Virus record (IMG/VR): IMGVR_UViG_3300028173_000073
Span: 1-20,821 of that record
From: a virus
Length of the DNA: 20,821 nt
Strand: one strand, 5' to 3'
The position numbers and the translations under genes are program-made. The notes under the pieces are model-generated. The model did not search any database, was not told the origin of the DNA, and saw only the letters and a program-made list of their open reading frames with translations. Of this stretch, positions 466 through 7,090 are shown piece by piece. Every line of letters starts with the position of its first letter. Positions within the stretch are counted from its first letter, which is position 1.

Positions 466-714
466 GTGCCGCTGCCCCGCCTCGCGCCCATGTTGCCCGC
501 AGACCGTCGGCCGTCCATCGGGCGCCGCTGCTACCTGTGTCGAGCCTCGGGGGCGCTCTGGAGGGTGGCAGCAGACCACGCCGGGGCCGCATCGGAGAAC
601 ACCGCGAGAGCTGGCGCACACCGCTGGGCGAAGCGGTACGGCAAGGCGTGGCCGCCCGAGGTCGACCAGCACGGCGATCCCGTCGATGCTGCACACAAAA
701 AGGGTGACGCATGA
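466..714 (+). CDS. Small hypothetical protein
   Basis: This 82-residue protein is not recognised. Its codons end mostly in G or C, as in the certain genes of this window, and its stop overlaps the start of the ParB-like gene as ATGA, both of which support it being real. The GTG start at 466 has GGAG at 457-460, five bases upstream. An in-frame ATG at 490 is an alternative. The protein is basic, has one C-x2-C (CYLC near residue 23), and ends in a hydrophilic tail. It contains no membrane segment. It is probably co-translated with the ParB-like gene, so a role in the same process is possible but unproven. Confidence 0.55.
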   Translation: MPLPRLAPMLPADRRPSIGRRCYLCRASGALWRVAADHAGAASENTARAGAHRWAKRYGKAWPPEVDQHGDPVDAAHKKGDA

Positions 715-1331
715 CGACGCAGGCAGCAACACCAGCCGCGGAATGGGTGGCGCTCGACGCTCTGGAGCCGTGGGACCGCAACGCTCGGCAGCACAGCGAC
801 GACAGCACTCGGAAACTGGTCGCGGGCATCCGGCGGTTCGGCTTCCTGGTGCCGCTCACCGCGTGGCGGGCGGAGTCGCGCATCGCCGCGGGGCATGGGC
901 GCCGGCTGGCGATGCTGGCGCTGCTCCGTGAGGACCCCGCCTTCATCCCGCGGAACGCGCCCCCCGGGGTCGGGCCGGGCATGGTCCCCGTCATGTTCGA
1001 GGACTTCGCCACAGAGGCGCAGTTCAAGGCGTTCGCCATCGCGGACAACCGGCAGGCGAAGAACGCTGAGGACGACGACGAGGCGGTTGCTGCCGTGCTC
1101 GCGGAGCTTGACGCGCAGGGGATCGAGTTCGACGGGATGGGCTTCGACGACGACGAGATCGCGGAGTTGCTCAATCCCGAGAGCGACGAGGACGATCCGT
1201 TCGAGGGCGGCGTGGACGATATGGACGAGGTCTGCGACGTGATGGTGGAGTGCGCCGACGAGAACGAACAGGGGCGAGCGTTGGAGCTGCTCCACAATGA
1301 GGGGTTCACATGCCGCGCGCTCACATCGTAA
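711..1331 (+). CDS. ParB-like (ParB/sulfiredoxin fold) protein
   Basis: The 206-residue protein has an N-terminal ParB-type domain at about residues 11-115. It opens with the typical VALDALEPWDRNAR segment, followed by a helix ending GFLVPLT, the nucleotide-binding motif GHGRR at 61-65, and an IADNR motif at 110-114. Family members bind or hydrolyse CTP in chromosome partitioning, or act as phage nucleases or partners of DNA-modifying enzymes. A strongly acidic linker follows (about 119-175). The C-terminal 30 residues read like a small alpha/beta unit (VMVECADENEQ, then EGFTCRAL), a tail often seen on phage ParB-fold proteins. There is no DNA-binding HTH of the kind found in true partition ParB, so plasmid-style partitioning is unlikely. 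The start is preceded by an AAAGGG site. The gene overlaps the ABC/GNAT gene by 22 bases. Confidence 0.85.
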   Translation: MTTQAATPAAEWVALDALEPWDRNARQHSDDSTRKLVAGIRRFGFLVPLTAWRAESRIAAGHGRRLAMLALLREDPAFIPRNAPPGVGPGMVPVMFEDFATEAQFKAFAIADNRQAKNAEDDDEAVAAVLAELDAQGIEFDGMGFDDDEIAELLNPESDEDDPFEGGVDDMDEVCDVMVECADENEQGRALELLHNEGFTCRALTS

Positions 1332-2392
1332 GAGAGTCTCGGGTGGTCCGCTCGGGTCGTGTGATGCAGTTGGAGGGCATGTTCGACGTGCTCCCGTCTG
1401 ACGTGTCGCGCGTCGAGTGGGACGTGTCGGTGCCGGTAGAAGATCGAGACTGGCAGGTAGGCTTGATCGTTGGCCCGTCGGGCTCGGGCAAGAGCACGAT
1501 CGCCGCGGAACTATTCGGCGAGGCCCTGGTGGACGAGCACGAGTGGGCGCACGATCGCGCGCTCGTCGACGGGTTCCCTGCCGACATGACTGCCACGCAG
1601 GTAGCGGACACCCTGTCACGGGTGGGGTTCTCGTCGCCGCCGGCATGGCGACGGCCATACCATGTGCTAAGCACCGGGCAGAAGTTCCGCGCGGACGTGG
1701 CACGGGCGATGGCCGAGAACCGTAGCGGGCTCGTGGTCTTCGATGAGTTTACGAGCGTGGTCGACCGGCAGGTCGCGCAGATCGGATCCAGCGCGGTTGG
1801 GCGTGCCGTTCGAGCCACGCCGGGTCAGCAGTTCATCGCGGTGACTTGTCACTATGACGTGGAGGAATGGCTCCAGCCCGATTGGGTGCTGCGCGTCGAT
1901 GAGGGACGATTCCTGTGGAGGTCGGTTCAACGACGACCCCCGATCACGCTCGACATTCGGCAGTGTGACGTTGAAGCGTGGCGGCTATTCCGCGAACATC
2001 ACTATCTGAGCCGCACGATCTCGAATAGTTCGCGCTGCTATGTGGCGTTCGTCGACGGGCGCCCGGCAGCATTCGTAGCGATGAACCCGTGGAGCCACGT
2101 TCGGCGGGGAGCGTGGCAGATGCATAGGGTGGTCTGTCTCCCCGACTTTCAAGGCGTTGGGATCGGACGACGTATGATGGACCATGTGGCGGCGCTATTC
2201 CTGCGAGAGAGCGGCCCCGTGTATATCGTGACCAGCGTGAGAGGGTTGGCGCGGTCGCTGGCGCGCGATCCAAAGTGGCGAATGACTCGCAAGCCGTCTC
2301 GCGTCACGTCCAAGCCCGGCAAGAACATGGTTCAGAAGACGATTTCACGCGGCCGACTGACCACGACGTTTCGGTATGCGGGGTCTCGCTGA
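1310..2392 (+). CDS. ABC-type ATPase fused to GNAT acyltransferase (COG2401-like)
   Basis: The 360-residue protein joins two domains. Residues about 40-205 are an ABC ATPase with Walker A GPSGSGKST (55-63), signature LSTGQ (120-124), Walker B LVVFDE with catalytic E146, D-loop SVVDR (149-153) and switch H181. All the residues needed for hydrolysis in a dimer are present. Residues about 213-325 are a GNAT fold with HHYL (230-233) and the acyl-CoA loop region VVCLPDFQGVGIGRR (274-288). This order matches the family named ABC-type ATPase fused to a predicted acetyltransferase. There are no membrane segments and no transporter partner, so it is not a transporter. Mu Mom, a DNA base-modifying enzyme, also has a GNAT fold, which makes an act on DNA conceivable. 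The start has GAGGGG five bases upstream. GC content is visibly lower than in neighbouring genes, suggesting later acquisition. Confidence 0.85.
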   Translation: MPRAHIVRESRVVRSGRVMQLEGMFDVLPSDVSRVEWDVSVPVEDRDWQVGLIVGPSGSGKSTIAAELFGEALVDEHEWAHDRALVDGFPADMTATQVADTLSRVGFSSPPAWRRPYHVLSTGQKFRADVARAMAENRSGLVVFDEFTSVVDRQVAQIGSSAVGRAVRATPGQQFIAVTCHYDVEEWLQPDWVLRVDEGRFLWRSVQRRPPITLDIRQCDVEAWRLFREHHYLSRTISNSSRCYVAFVDGRPAAFVAMNPWSHVRRGAWQMHRVVCLPDFQGVGIGRRMMDHVAALFLRESGPVYIVTSVRGLARSLARDPKWRMTRKPSRVTSKPGKNMVQKTISRGRLTTTFRYAGSR

Positions 2393-2994
2393 TGGCACGC
2401 AAGCCCCGCGCCGACAAGTTCGCCGGCCAGCCCGTCGCCCGCCTCGCCGACGCCATCGACCGCGCCATCACCAAAGGCGCGCTCTCGGGTGACGCTCAGA
2501 TGCTCGCCGCGCTTCAGCGCGAGGTCCGGGCGCTCATGCTCGGGGTGTGCGAGCCACCGCCGCCGCCGAAGGTGTTTCGCGGGCGCAAGCAGCTCGTGTT
2601 CGAGGCCGTGCTCCAAGGCATGACCCCGGCCGAGACCATGGAAGCCGTGGGGTGCAGTCGCGCGACGGAGTACCGCTGTCGGAAGGATCCCGAGTTCCAA
2701 GCGGCGCTGGCCGAGGCGCGGGCGCATCGCATCGTGGCGGTGCAGGAGTCGGCCGGCGACCTGCTGCCGCTCGCCCTCCAGCGCATGCGCGGGATCCTGC
2801 TCGACCCGGCCGCAGCGCACAAGGATCTGATCGCGGTGTTCCGCGAGTTGGCCGACCGATCGGGGCTGGCGAAGACCGAGCGCGTGGAGGTCGAGGAGGT
2901 CGGCGACAAGCACGCGGGCGACGTTCGCGGGTCCGCGGCCGAGGCTGCCACCCGTCTCCGGGTGCTCGTGGGCGGTCGCGCCGAGTCGATCTGA
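2392..2994 (+). CDS. terS: Putative terminase small subunit (HTH protein)
   Basis: The 200-residue protein has a helix-turn-helix region at about residues 67-110: a helix, then GMTPAETMEAVGCSRATEY and a helix beginning with the DPEFQAAL segment. This layout is typical of phage small terminases, which bind the packaging site and load the large subunit. The helical stretch at 111-160 could oligomerise, and the C-terminus is charged. The position two genes before the large terminase supports the call. ATG at 2392 is chosen because it forms a TGATG junction with the previous stop. An upstream in-frame start at 2275 would add 39 unlikely residues inside the previous gene. It could instead be a general DNA-binding regulator. 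Confidence 0.65.
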   Translation: MARKPRADKFAGQPVARLADAIDRAITKGALSGDAQMLAALQREVRALMLGVCEPPPPPKVFRGRKQLVFEAVLQGMTPAETMEAVGCSRATEYRCRKDPEFQAALAEARAHRIVAVQESAGDLLPLALQRMRGILLDPAAAHKDLIAVFRELADRSGLAKTERVEVEEVGDKHAGDVRGSAAEAATRLRVLVGGRAESI

Positions 2995-3809
2995 TGCTCG
3001 TCGGCCCCTCGCTACTCGTGACCCTCGCCCCGCATTCGGGGTCCCGCTCGCTCGCCCGCCGGCTCCAGGTCGAGGTCGAGCGACCCGCGGGCCTGACGGC
3101 AGGGACGCACGTGGGCCTGTGGGCTGGCGCTGACCGATGGCCCGGCCGGCGCATGCTCGGGGCGACCCGCGACCCGGTGGCGTGGCACGTGGCGCACTTC
3201 GGGCACTGGGCGCGCGGGGCGAGCGGCGCGGAGCGGCTGGCCCCGTGGATGGCCCCCGCGGCGGCTCAGGCGGCCCGTGCTGCCGCTGCCGAGTTCGGCA
3301 CGCTCGCGAGTGCAGCGCGGCACGCCCCGGCGCTGCTGGGCTACCTGTGGGCGTCCTACGTGGTGGGCGTGGCGACCCCGGGCGCGGTCCTCGCCGACGT
3401 GGACGCCCGGCCGGCGGCGATGTCGTGGCCGATGCAGGGCGAGACGGTGGCCCCGGCCCGGTGGATGGCCGAGCGTGGCGCGGGCCTCGCGACCTGGGGC
3501 TATGTGCGACAGTTCTACCCCCGGCGGCTGTGGTCGCGCGGGGTCGACGACCTCATCGCGAAGGCCCCGGACATGCTCGCCGACGCGCTGGTCGACTGCG
3601 GCCAGCTCGACGCGGGGCTCGCCGAGGTGTCCCAGGTGTGGGGCCTCGCCCTGTCGGGTGGTGCGGGCGCTGGGGCGTCCGCTGCGCCCTCGCCCGCCGT
3701 GGCCCCCACCTCGGAGCAGGCCGAGCGGTTGCGACGCGCTGAGCGGCTGATCTACGTGCTGCATCCCGGCTACCTGGACGGCACGGCGCCCCCGGTGGTG
3801 TGGGCATGA
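2994..3809 (+). CDS. Possible sulfotransferase-like protein
   Basis: The 271-residue protein sits between the terminase subunits, joined to both by TGATG and ATGA overlaps. Its start LLVTLAPHSGSRSLARRL (7-24) resembles the 5'-phosphosulfate loop of small phage and bacterial sulfotransferases, and ATRDPVAWHVAHF (57-69) resembles their 3'-phosphate motif. However, the serine usually found about eight residues after that arginine is not there. The middle is alanine- and tryptophan-rich, and 220-240 is a low-complexity Gly/Ala/Pro linker before a short charged C-terminal helix. If active it would transfer sulfate from PAPS to a sugar or protein. It may be a degenerate or structural relative, or an unrelated packaging accessory. 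Confidence 0.4.
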   Translation: MLVGPSLLVTLAPHSGSRSLARRLQVEVERPAGLTAGTHVGLWAGADRWPGRRMLGATRDPVAWHVAHFGHWARGASGAERLAPWMAPAAAQAARAAAAEFGTLASAARHAPALLGYLWASYVVGVATPGAVLADVDARPAAMSWPMQGETVAPARWMAERGAGLATWGYVRQFYPRRLWSRGVDDLIAKAPDMLADALVDCGQLDAGLAEVSQVWGLALSGGAGAGASAAPSPAVAPTSEQAERLRRAERLIYVLHPGYLDGTAPPVVWA

Positions 3810-5569
3810 CCGCGGCACTACGCGCGGCGGGGCCTCTCGACCTGGACGCGCTGCTCCAGCGGGTCGAGGACGCGCAGACGGCACGGCGGCAGGCCCGCGC
3901 GCTGCTCGTGCTCGTCGAGCAGTTGGCCGCGCACCCCGCGTCGGAGGGCACCGACGGGTCGCGCGTGCTGTCGTGGGCGGTCGAGCAGATGGAAGCGCAC
4001 CACGCGGCGGCCGGGCGCTCGCCGCTCGCCTACGCCGAACCGTGGGCGCCGAGGTGCAACCGCTGCGGGGCGTGGGATCCCGTCATGGGCGAACTCGCGA
4101 GTCCCGAGATGACGTGGACCGGGGAGGGCGCGGTCCATGAATGCCCGTGCTGCGGGGTGCGGGAGGCGCGGACCTCGCAACGGCTGGCGCTGCGGCGCGC
4201 GCTCGTCGAAGACGCGGACTATGCGTTCATCCTCGGCGGGAACCGTACCGGCAAGTCGGAGGGGGCCGCGCAGCTCTGCGCCGCCGTGACCCTCGGGCGA
4301 GACGACCCCGGGACGCGCGAGTGGGTGCGGTCGCTGGGCATCGACCTCGCCGACATCAGCCTACGCAAGTTGCCCGAAGGGGCGGGCCTGTCCTACGCCA
4401 TCGCGCTCACCTCTCACGACTCGCTCCAGTACGTGCGGCCGAAGTTGGCGCGCTACCTCCCCGCCGGGACCCGGTACCGGGCGTGGACGGGCAACCAGCA
4501 GGCCGAAGCGCGGACGGAGGACGGTGGGAAGGTGGTGTGCAAGTCCGTCGACCAGGGCCGGCGGGCGATGCAGGGCGCGGCGGCCCGGTTCGTGTGGCCC
4601 GACGAGGAGATCGACGGGAACGAAGCGATCGAGATCATGGAGGAACTGGACGCCCGGTTGACCGACGCGAACGGGTGGATGGTGCTGTCGATGACCCCGC
4701 TAAAGGGGTGGACGCCGATGCTGGAGCGGTACGTGAAGACGCCCCGCCCTGATGTGCTCGTGTCCCACCTCAGCGTCCTGGATAATCCCTACATCGAGCG
4801 GGCCAGCGTCGTGAAGCGGCTGGCGCGGTACGGCGAGCGGATCCGGCTGGCCCGTGAGCGCGGGACCATCACGGCGATAGAGGGGGCGGTGCATCCCGAT
4901 TTCGACCGGGCGGTGCATGTCGTCCCGGCGTTCCCGATCCCGACCGAATGGCCGCGCCTCGCCGGTATCGACTTCGGCGTGCGGGACCCCTTCGTCCACC
5001 TCTGGTGCGCGCTCGGCCCGGACGAGGTCGTCCACGTCTACCGCGAGCATTACAAGCGCGACGACCGGCTGCGGGACCATGCGCGCGCGATCTGGGAGAT
5101 CGAGGGGTGCCCCGACTGCATGCCGCCCGAGTTCGGGTCAGACAAATGGCAGGGCTGGACGGTGCGGGTCGCGATGGGCGAGGTCAAGTGTGACACGTGC
5201 GACGGCACGGGGCGGCGGGAGCCGGAACCCGACGTGCGGTGGGCGGACGCGGCGGGGCTCGACCAGCGGCGGACCCTGTCGGGCGAGTACGGCATCGTCA
5301 CGGCGCCCGCGCACAAGGACCGGGCGGCCGGGTTCGACGTGCTCGACGAAGCGATGCAACTCGACGCGGAGGGGCGGCCCCACTTCGTCGTGCATGACTG
5401 CTGCCCCGAGACGATCCGCGAGTTGGAGGGCATCCGGTGGAACGATAAGCGGGTGAATGAGACGGCGACAATCGGCGACGACCACGCATGGGACACGCTC
5501 CGGTATGTGCTGCTCGGCGCTCGCCGGGCGGGCTATCTGTCGCCTCCGCCCGCGCTGGACGAGGATTGA
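3806..5569 (+). CDS. terL: Terminase large subunit
   Basis: This 587-residue protein is the packaging motor ATPase and headful or end-cutting nuclease. Walker A GGNRTGKS lies at 144-151, Walker B FVWPDEE at 262-268, and the coupling motif VLSMTP at 293-298. The RNase H-like nuclease follows, with D389 in GIDFG, a likely second acid near D481, and GDDHAWDTLRY at 558-567 supplying the third. Two cysteine modules are unusual. The first is before the ATPase (C84/C87 and C113/C116). The second lies inside the nuclease domain (C435/C438 and C462/C465, the latter in CDTCDGTG). Both could bind zinc. ATG at 3806 overlaps the previous stop as ATGA. A GTG two codons upstream is less likely. Confidence 0.95.
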   Translation: MTAALRAAGPLDLDALLQRVEDAQTARRQARALLVLVEQLAAHPASEGTDGSRVLSWAVEQMEAHHAAAGRSPLAYAEPWAPRCNRCGAWDPVMGELASPEMTWTGEGAVHECPCCGVREARTSQRLALRRALVEDADYAFILGGNRTGKSEGAAQLCAAVTLGRDDPGTREWVRSLGIDLADISLRKLPEGAGLSYAIALTSHDSLQYVRPKLARYLPAGTRYRAWTGNQQAEARTEDGGKVVCKSVDQGRRAMQGAAARFVWPDEEIDGNEAIEIMEELDARLTDANGWMVLSMTPLKGWTPMLERYVKTPRPDVLVSHLSVLDNPYIERASVVKRLARYGERIRLARERGTITAIEGAVHPDFDRAVHVVPAFPIPTEWPRLAGIDFGVRDPFVHLWCALGPDEVVHVYREHYKRDDRLRDHARAIWEIEGCPDCMPPEFGSDKWQGWTVRVAMGEVKCDTCDGTGRREPEPDVRWADAAGLDQRRTLSGEYGIVTAPAHKDRAAGFDVLDEAMQLDAEGRPHFVVHDCCPETIRELEGIRWNDKRVNETATIGDDHAWDTLRYVLLGARRAGYLSPPPALDED

Positions 5570-5611: not shown

Positions 5612-7090
5612 GTGCCTGACGAGTCCAAGCGGCAGATCCCCGAGGGGGCCATGGTCCCGCGCCCGAGCATGTGGGGCCGGGCTGGCGCTGCCATCATGCG
5701 CGCCCTCCGCATCGTGGACCCGGTCGTCCCGCTCGCCGAGACGCACACCCCGGGCGGCGACTTCGCTGCGGGCACGGCCACGGGTCCCGGCTACTCCATC
5801 CGGCGGGCGTGGTTCAGCTACGCCTTGTCGCCATGGGTCCAGGTCTGCGTTGAACGCATCGCCGAGGATCTGGCGTCGCTGCCCCTCGTCGCTGAGCGGC
5901 GCGCGGCCGATGGCTCGTGGGAGCGGGTCGACCGCAGCGAAGCGGTGGACATGCTCAACGACCCCGGGCGCGGTGGCGGGCTGGTGATGCGGTCGCAGTT
6001 CGCCGCGGATCAGGCGCTCGCCGCCAACGTGTTCCTCCTGCCGCTGCTCTCGGCGCTCAACGGTCGGCCGATCTCGATCACTCGGCTGCACCCCGCGCGG
6101 GTCGAGGCTATCCCGGGCGAGCAGGGGCTATTGGGCTGGTCGGTGGACGAAGGCGGGATCGCCCGCGAGTACACGGCTGATGCGGTCATCCACGCGCGGG
6201 GCCTGTCCTGGTCGGACGACCCGCGGGGCCTGATGGGCACGCCGCCGATCCAGGCGCTCGCCGCTGACCTCGACGCGGACCTCGCGCTTGCGGGGATGAC
6301 GAAGCGGAGCGCCGAGAAGGGCCGCCCCGATGCCATCTACCACCCCTCCAAAGAGGGCGAGCAGTGGGCGCCGCGGATCGTGGCGCTGATCAAGCGGCAA
6401 CTGGAGAGCGTGTTCTCGTCGTCGCACGGCGGCGTCGCCGTCCTGGACGGGGCCGGAAAGCTCGACGTGATCGGGTGGTCGCCGCGGGACATGGAAGGCG
6501 TCGAGGCGCGCACGTGGACGCGGCAGACCATCCTGTCCCGCTTCGGTGTGCCCCCGACGATCGCCGGCATTCCCGACGCCGCCAACTACGCGACCGCACA
6601 GCAGGAGGCGGTCACGTACTGGACGCGGCTCCAGGCCCGCGCGGCGACGCTGGATCAGGCGTTCACGGAGTTGTCGGTGCGGCTCGACCAGCCCGACCTA
6701 CGGATCCGGCACGACTTCTCGCGGGTCCCGGCGCTGGCTGACGTGCAGACGGCGGCGGTCGCCCGGGTGCAAGCATGGGTGCTGATGGGCGCCGACCCTG
6801 TGGCCGCCGCGGCGTATGAAGGGCTGGAGGACGTGCCCGCGTCCATGTTCCCGCTCCCCGACGCGGTGATCACTGCCGCGGAGGATGACGCCGACGACGC
6901 CGACGAGCCGACCCCGGCCGTGGTCGAGGTCGACACCGCCGCCGCCGAGGAGGCGCGCGACGAGCTGGCCGCCGCCCTCGACGCGCTGAGCGACCCCGAC
7001 GCCGACCCCGAGGTTGTGGCCGACGCGCTGGGGGGCCTGCGGGCCGCCCTGGACGCCGTCGAGGCGCTGATTGCTGAGGCGCGAGCGTGA
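5612..7090 (+). CDS. Portal protein (HK97-type)
   Basis: The 492-residue protein forms the dodecameric ring at the capsid vertex through which DNA passes. Typical portal features are the SPWVQVCVERIAEDLASLPL helix region near residues 70-90, the segment with FAADQALAANVFLLPL, the HPARVE strand, and the RFGVPPTIAGIPDAANYATAQQ segment around 310-330, which matches the conserved stem region. The last 70 residues (423-492) are very acidic and Ala-rich, with runs of Asp and predicted helix. This is longer than a minimal portal needs. The GTG start is set by an excellent ribosome-binding site. The gene lies directly after the large terminase, as is usual, and overlaps the next gene as GTGA. Confidence 0.93.
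   Translation: MPDESKRQIPEGAMVPRPSMWGRAGAAIMRALRIVDPVVPLAETHTPGGDFAAGTATGPGYSIRRAWFSYALSPWVQVCVERIAEDLASLPLVAERRAADGSWERVDRSEAVDMLNDPGRGGGLVMRSQFAADQALAANVFLLPLLSALNGRPISITRLHPARVEAIPGEQGLLGWSVDEGGIAREYTADAVIHARGLSWSDDPRGLMGTPPIQALAADLDADLALAGMTKRSAEKGRPDAIYHPSKEGEQWAPRIVALIKRQLESVFSSSHGGVAVLDGAGKLDVIGWSPRDMEGVEARTWTRQTILSRFGVPPTIAGIPDAANYATAQQEAVTYWTRLQARAATLDQAFTELSVRLDQPDLRIRHDFSRVPALADVQTAAVARVQAWVLMGADPVAAAAYEGLEDVPASMFPLPDAVITAAEDDADDADEPTPAVVEVDTAAAEEARDELAAALDALSDPDADPEVVADALGGLRAALDAVEALIAEARA

Follow-up and report, generated by a model that had tools for sequence, protein, structure and literature searches.

What do two overlapping genes, one for a ParB-like protein and one for an ABC ATPase joined to a GNAT acyltransferase, do next to the terminase genes of a virus? 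The original prediction was that they form a two-part system that acylates or otherwise marks phage DNA, possibly coupled to packaging. We examined this in the window, the whole stretch of DNA analyzed (20,821 bases, positions 1 to 20,821 of virus record IMGVR_UViG_3300028173_000073), and in related loci. DNA marking emerged as the best-supported function: the pair is probably a DNA-base acylation system, a prediction to which we give a probability of about 0.6.

Two overlapping genes upstream of the terminase

The two ORFs, 711-1331 (206 aa) and 1310-2392 (360 aa), lie on the + strand and share exactly 22 nt, as had been claimed. The start codon of the ABC-GNAT gene lies inside the ParB-like gene and has its own purine-rich ribosome binding site there, which the first reading of the sequence had missed. 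The predicted place upstream of the terminase is also correct. A gene for an HTH protein begins within the sequence TGATG, where its ATG overlaps the ABC-GNAT stop codon, and is followed by the TerL and portal genes; the neighbors of the pair in the window are terminase and structural genes. The 271-aa protein encoded between the small-terminase-like gene and TerL (2994-3809) matched no Pfam or PHROG family.

711..1331, + strand: ParB-like protein P0001, 206 aa, with a ParB/Srx-fold domain (residues ~11-118), a helical region, and a C-terminal adaptor module (PHROG, AlphaFold2, Foldseek)
1299..1304, + strand: GAGGGG, a Shine-Dalgarno-like stretch for the ABC-GNAT gene, within the ParB-like gene (sequence)
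1310..1331, + strand: 22-nt gene overlap, kept in relatives across several phyla
1310..2392, + strand: ABC ATPase-GNAT fusion P0002, 360 aa (phrog_11143, 1.1e-102, full length)
2392..2994, + strand: HTH protein, probable small terminase subunit (phrog_2538, 6e-6; HTH_23, 6.6e-4)
3800..5569, + strand: large terminase subunit, TerL (phrog_2, 1.5e-20)
5612-7090: portal gene, after TerL, with capsid genes also downstream (Pfam/PHROG profile matches)

An intact ATPase joined to an intact acyltransferase

ABC-GNAT genes are found in hundreds of viral contigs and prophages from many phyla, annotated as "ABC transporter" or "hypothetical." The family matched by the window protein, phrog_11143, is also matched by clades B (Mu-like), C (Gordonia phage Sisko type), and D (Aeromonas AsFcp type) of these proteins; PHROG gives it no function. 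Pfam recognized both Acetyltransf_1 (PF00583, 1.8e-9) and ABC_tran (1.9e-7) in P0002, and its AlphaFold2 model has a pLDDT of 92.2 and a pTM of 0.87. With the full-length protein, the best 50 Foldseek matches were ABC ATPases only.

We measured residue conservation across 126 representatives or relatives less than 70% identical. Indeed, the complete set of ABC ATPase motifs that had been claimed (Walker A and B, signature, catalytic Glu, D-loop, and H-loop) is present together with the GNAT domain. One doubt had been whether this domain has a CoA-binding pocket; its CoA-binding motif is in place, with residues kept in 124 to 126 of the 126 proteins. R273 and W323 likewise vary little or not at all. 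Since the catalytic residues of both domains show this degree of conservation, the ATPase and the GNAT are both expected to be active.

1349..1390, + strand: N-terminal signature RSGRVMQLEGMFDV, family consensus RTxRVxQLEGMFDxP; R17 kept in partnered clades only
1472..1498, + strand: Walker A, GPSGSGKST; K61 126/126
1667..1681, + strand: ABC signature, LSTGQ; S121 and G123 126/126
1733..1768, + strand: Walker B (D145), catalytic Glu146, and D-loop, VVFDEFTSVVDR; D145, E146, D152, and R153 126/126
1847..1852, + strand: Cys180-His181, H-loop; H181 126/126, C180 125/126
1922..2389, + strand: GNAT domain (PF00583)
1997..2005, + strand: HHY motif with candidate active-site residues H231-Y232; H231 125/126, Y232 126/126
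2150..2167, + strand: GNAT motif A, QGVGIG, acyl-CoA pyrophosphate binding; Q281 124/126, G282 126/126, G284 125/126

The two genes travel together

We searched for relatives with the ABC-GNAT protein as the only query, taking 80 loci from IMG/VR and 80 from bacterial genomes, and scored pairing with a clean ParB HMM only among loci with enough upstream sequence. A ParB-like gene lies directly upstream of the ABC-GNAT gene in 147 of the 150 closest relatives and in 73/76 after redundancy removal at 70% identity, and in three loci (L004, L024, and L062) the two genes are naturally fused into a single ORF. The pairing foreseen in related phages thus holds for this clade, and the near-obligate linkage and the fusions support the view that the two proteins work together. 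The overlap itself is conserved. Among loci with differing sequence around the junction, 65 have an overlap of exactly 22 nt, and in 57 of these a Shine-Dalgarno-like purine-rich stretch precedes the ABC-GNAT start. The identical overlap occurs in phages of Firmicutes and of actinobacteria; elsewhere it measures 4, 10, or 19 nt. Genes of terminase families recur just downstream of ABC-GNAT, in clusters of 35, 17, 13, and 8 loci. The module stands apart from the terminase in Mu-like and jumbo phages.

The system also exists in pieces. Phages of Oenococcus and Streptococcus and Lactococcus P335 phages carry ABC and GNAT as separate genes, in the order ParB/ABC/GNAT. A more distant version is found in SSU5-like phage-plasmids such as Klebsiella phage pJN2-26, with the order ParB-ParB-ABC-x-acyltransferase-...-TerL. 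Like the window, this locus is close to the terminase and has homologous ParB and ABC proteins (hhalign: ABC, E = 2.5e-19; ParB, 2e-24); unlike the window, it keeps all parts separate, has two ParB copies, and carries an extra gene between the ABC and acyltransferase genes. Its acyltransferase (2e-4) shows a weaker GNAT kinship to the window protein than do its ABC and ParB parts. The split locus occurs in 871 plasmid records, usually annotated as an ABC transporter.

Pseudoalteromonas phage SL25 has both genes of the pair (L083:3468-5071), yet its public annotation lists neither. Rhizobium phage RHEph10 (L379) has the order ParB-hyp-ParB-hyp-ABC followed by a gene annotated DUF2829, upstream of TerL. 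The DUF2829 family includes the anti-Thoeris protein Tad2.

The conserved link is a C-terminal mini-domain

PHROG profiles matched P0001 well (phrog_620, 1.5e-29; phrog_15396, 2e-24), and Pfam ParB_N stayed below threshold in the Pfam profile search. The AlphaFold2 model (pLDDT 90.6) matched KorB (9e-5), Noc, ParB (1.6e-4), PadC, and sulfiredoxin (TMt 0.74) in Foldseek, which places the protein in the ParB/sulfiredoxin fold. The GHGRR motif noted originally is there, at residues 61-65, and the window protein has the GxxR motif. We rejected it as the conserved core, however: in an alignment of 49 partner proteins, its Arg is kept in only 31, the remainder having GNGT and the like, and two clades lack the ParB domain altogether. 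Three residues are invariant in this alignment: N24 and G61, both in the ParB domain, and Q187, within the final ~35 residues.

891..905, + strand: GHGRR motif (residues 61-65) of the ParB domain; G61 49/49, motif Arg 31/49
1224..1328, + strand: mini-domain, residues 172-206, with a strand-helix-strand pattern in the sequence; Q187 49/49, E184 48/49, G198 48/49

Q187 belongs to a separate conserved C-terminal module of ~35-40 aa (consensus VxxECxxExEQxxLLxxLxxEGxxCRA), which had escaped the original prediction. This mini-domain is homologous to a stand-alone protein of ~50 aa (phrog_28816) encoded directly before ABC-GNAT in Mu-like phages. The free-standing module is upstream of ABC-GNAT in 80/80 clade B loci, all of which lack a ParB domain; 62/80 raw "ParB" matches in this clade turned out to be the stand-alone protein and were discarded. 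Clade C has both the ParB domain and the adaptor module. The conserved link of the pair is therefore the C-terminal mini-domain of the ParB-like protein, rather than the ParB nucleotide motif.

Clade D has neither a ParB-like nor an adaptor gene next to ABC-GNAT (0/80 loci); some lineages can therefore do without the partner. In a tree of 80 ABC-GNAT proteins, partner states cluster strongly: six changes account for them, compared with a mean of 31 after shuffling. ABC-GNAT retains R17 and D87 in clades A to C and has other residues at these positions in clade D, a pattern that would fit a role in an interface with the partner; this is only a lead, because one clade amounts to one event.

Extra ParB-like genes stand beside the module in L064 (7107-8416), L061, and L075, as if the partner had been duplicated. 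Phages of Porphyromonas gingivalis (L092:3780-3908 and others) encode the adaptor as a stand-alone protein of 42 aa that carries the annotation "acr candidate." This protein is related to the C-terminal module of the ParB-like proteins and is encoded ahead of ABC-GNAT, both of which speak against an anti-CRISPR.

DNA is the probable target

An ABC-GNAT protein of this kind has been predicted before. A passage of PMC7824862 describes a GNAT coupled to an ABC ATPase as predicted to acylate a DNA nucleobase, giving QAX98348.1 as the example and crediting Iyer et al. (its ref. 136). This protein, from Aeromonas phage AsFcp_2, is 39% identical to the window ABC-GNAT over 313 aa (E = 3e-57), and the window protein shares with the family, as outlined there, the ABC ATPase joined to a GNAT and the intact ABC and GNAT CoA motifs. 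The cited jumbo-phage form has no ParB/adaptor partner, whereas the window has a ParB-adaptor with translational overlap and a place beside the terminase. In the literature that we searched and compared, which did not extend to Iyer et al. 2013, we found no description of the ParB-adaptor/ABC-GNAT pair and its near-obligate linkage, of the stand-alone module common to both forms, of the fusions, or of the split version in phage-plasmids.

We infer DNA as the target largely from the company that these genes keep. The ParB domain of the window is related to the N-terminal portion of the ParB-methyltransferase family of phages (phrog_498, 3.7e-31), in which a DNA methyltransferase is fused to the ParB module; in the window, the catalytic part would be the separate ABC-GNAT. 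Mom-family genes (PF25680; 3e-42 to 1e-14) occur near ABC-GNAT in about three independent arrangements: directly upstream (L261/L262), within ~3.3 kb (L302/L318/L320-L322), and downstream with a 4-nt overlap (L312-type loci). Of 50,697 phage records, only 226 have a Mom-like match. In L320, a DNA methylase adjoins the Mom-family gene. In clade B, the contig ends less than 2 kb downstream of ABC-GNAT in 52/80 loci, to be compared with mom at the right end of Mu.

Does the GNAT domain itself descend from Mom? It does not appear to. Aligned by hhalign with Mu Mom and with a nine-member Mom alignment, the GNAT profile gave probabilities of 0.1-0.15%, and a Pfam search of the window returned no PF25680 match. 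A Mom-like working mode, as distinct from descent, is plausible. Mu Mom is a GNAT-type acyltransferase encoded with a small overlapping upstream gene (com/mom), as in the window, and near the right end of Mu, as ABC-GNAT is in Mu-like relatives, and Mom genes neighbor some relatives; unlike the window protein with its ABC ATPase and ParB-adaptor partner, Mom has no ATPase and is partnered by Com. The DNA-marking hypothesis thus gains from Mom-family, methyltransferase, and other modification-type neighbors, from the Mom-like place in Mu-like phages, and from the published prediction (PMC7824862), and loses its supposed sequence kinship to Mom. For the suggested coupling to packaging, what stands is the position next to the terminase, and nothing beyond position.

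Heme biosynthesis genes lie between the ABC-GNAT and Mom-family genes of two viral contigs (L302:5678-8188 and L320:5114-7625). A scan of L302 identified them as uroporphyrinogen decarboxylase, coproporphyrinogen oxidase, and porphobilinogen deaminase.

Other targets and roles

GNATs also act on proteins, RNA, and small molecules, which counts against the DNA-acylation reading. The ATPase-GNAT could acylate tRNA or mRNA as TmcA/NAT10 do in making N4-acetylcytidine, and so shield phage or host RNA. TmcA/NAT10 likewise join an ATP-using module to a GNAT with a similar motif A, and NAT10 ranks among the top PDB sequence matches of the GNAT profile, weak as this match is (E = 0.018). In addition, an ASCH gene is within the flanks of about 25 clade A loci, and the E. 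coli ASCH protein YqfB is an N4-acylcytosine amidohydrolase, hydrolyzing N4-acylcytosines (PMC6972931); the ASCH neighbors are only candidates for an enzyme of this type. We nevertheless consider RNA an unlikely target. The window ATPase is of the ABC class and not a RecD-like helicase as in TmcA/NAT10, the similarity to NAT10 is limited to motif A, and the ParB/DNA-methyltransferase-type partners, the Mom neighbors, and the terminase linkage favor DNA.

Slightly less probable still is acylation of a protein for host takeover or anti-defense, in the way that phiKMV Rac acetylates host RNA polymerase. RNA polymerase can be a target of phage GNATs (PMC7824862), and one split relative adjoins a gene annotated as DUF2829. 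Protein acetylation, however, needs no dedicated ABC ATPase or ParB partner, and the module sits beside late packaging genes, not early genes, and has Mom-family neighbors. We give a similarly low chance to a DNA-handling accessory of packaging, an ABC-ParB pair that loads near the packaging site with the GNAT activity being secondary. Terminase genes are often adjacent, and ABC proteins and ParB proteins each belong to types known to bind DNA, but the GNAT catalytic residues are strictly conserved and the module is found away from the terminase in Mu-like and jumbo phages. Least credible is a chance operon of two unrelated genes, the ParB-like one coding for a partition protein or nuclease. 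Many phages encode ParB-like proteins, which often carry the annotation "partition nuclease," and clade D lacks the partner; such an accident is hard to reconcile with linkage in 147/150 relatives, fusions, a conserved overlap, and an adaptor module kept where the ParB domain is absent.

A proposed model for marking of DNA before packaging

For DNA-base acylation, which we prefer, the following sequence of events can be proposed. The overlap would ensure that both proteins are made together, and the C-terminal mini-domain would dock the ParB-like protein on ABC-GNAT to form a complex. The ParB-like protein would then be an accessory subunit whose ParB-fold domain targets the complex to DNA or gates it. 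ATP-driven dimerization of the ABC domains may grip, open, clamp, or distort the DNA, while the GNAT domain would bind acyl-CoA and pass its acyl group on to an exocyclic amine, at N6 in adenine or N4 in cytosine. Since the genes are in the terminase region and made together, late coexpression would limit marking to DNA about to be packaged. The mark would probably protect phage DNA from restriction in the next host. For Leptospira LE3/LE4, the phages' paper contains no restriction data.

With a ParB/adaptor subunit that travels with ABC-GNAT, an isolated prediction becomes a defined multipart machine, and there are cultured carrier phages for analysis of virion DNA (Gordonia phage Sisko, Rhodococcus phage Jace, Lactococcus P335, Leptospira LE4, and Pseudomonas Komp_PAO1_1) and residues for mutation. 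If the prediction is true, ATP-dependent acylation joins the known chemistries of DNA modification, and a large class of unexplained ParB-like phage proteins finds an explanation. A bolder version, which we regard as tentative, is an epigenetic system of phages built from modules, in which a very small docking unit, either by itself or joined to a ParB domain, would control an ATP-gated acyltransferase that makes a new N-acylated virion base, perhaps an aminoacylated one (e.g., beta-alanyl), with lineage-specific tailoring genes (formyltransferase-like, PanD, and Mom).

Neighboring genes hint at the chemistry

A Formyl_trans_N gene follows ABC-GNAT in 35/41 clade C and 41/80 clade B loci. These formyltransferase-like proteins keep the HPSLLP motif, and by a simple pattern the catalytic Asn of N-x-H is present in only 10/92, so we make no claim of formyl transfer. 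PanD (aspartate decarboxylase) genes stand directly after ABC-GNAT in unrelated genomes (L082:5059-5484, L079:7113-7469, L108:1508-1891, and L109:7220-7510), pointing to a possible supply of beta-alanine or CoA. Formyltransferase-like, PanD, and ASCH neighbors are limited to particular lineages. The window has none of the three and therefore presumably relies on one of the cell's usual acyl-CoAs as acyl donor. Gene 3 of Gordonia phage Sisko (L085:1814-2464), in a locus with the order ParB/ABC-GNAT/FMT, is annotated "tRNA-methyltransferase" and matches Formyl_trans_N at 4.5e-10.
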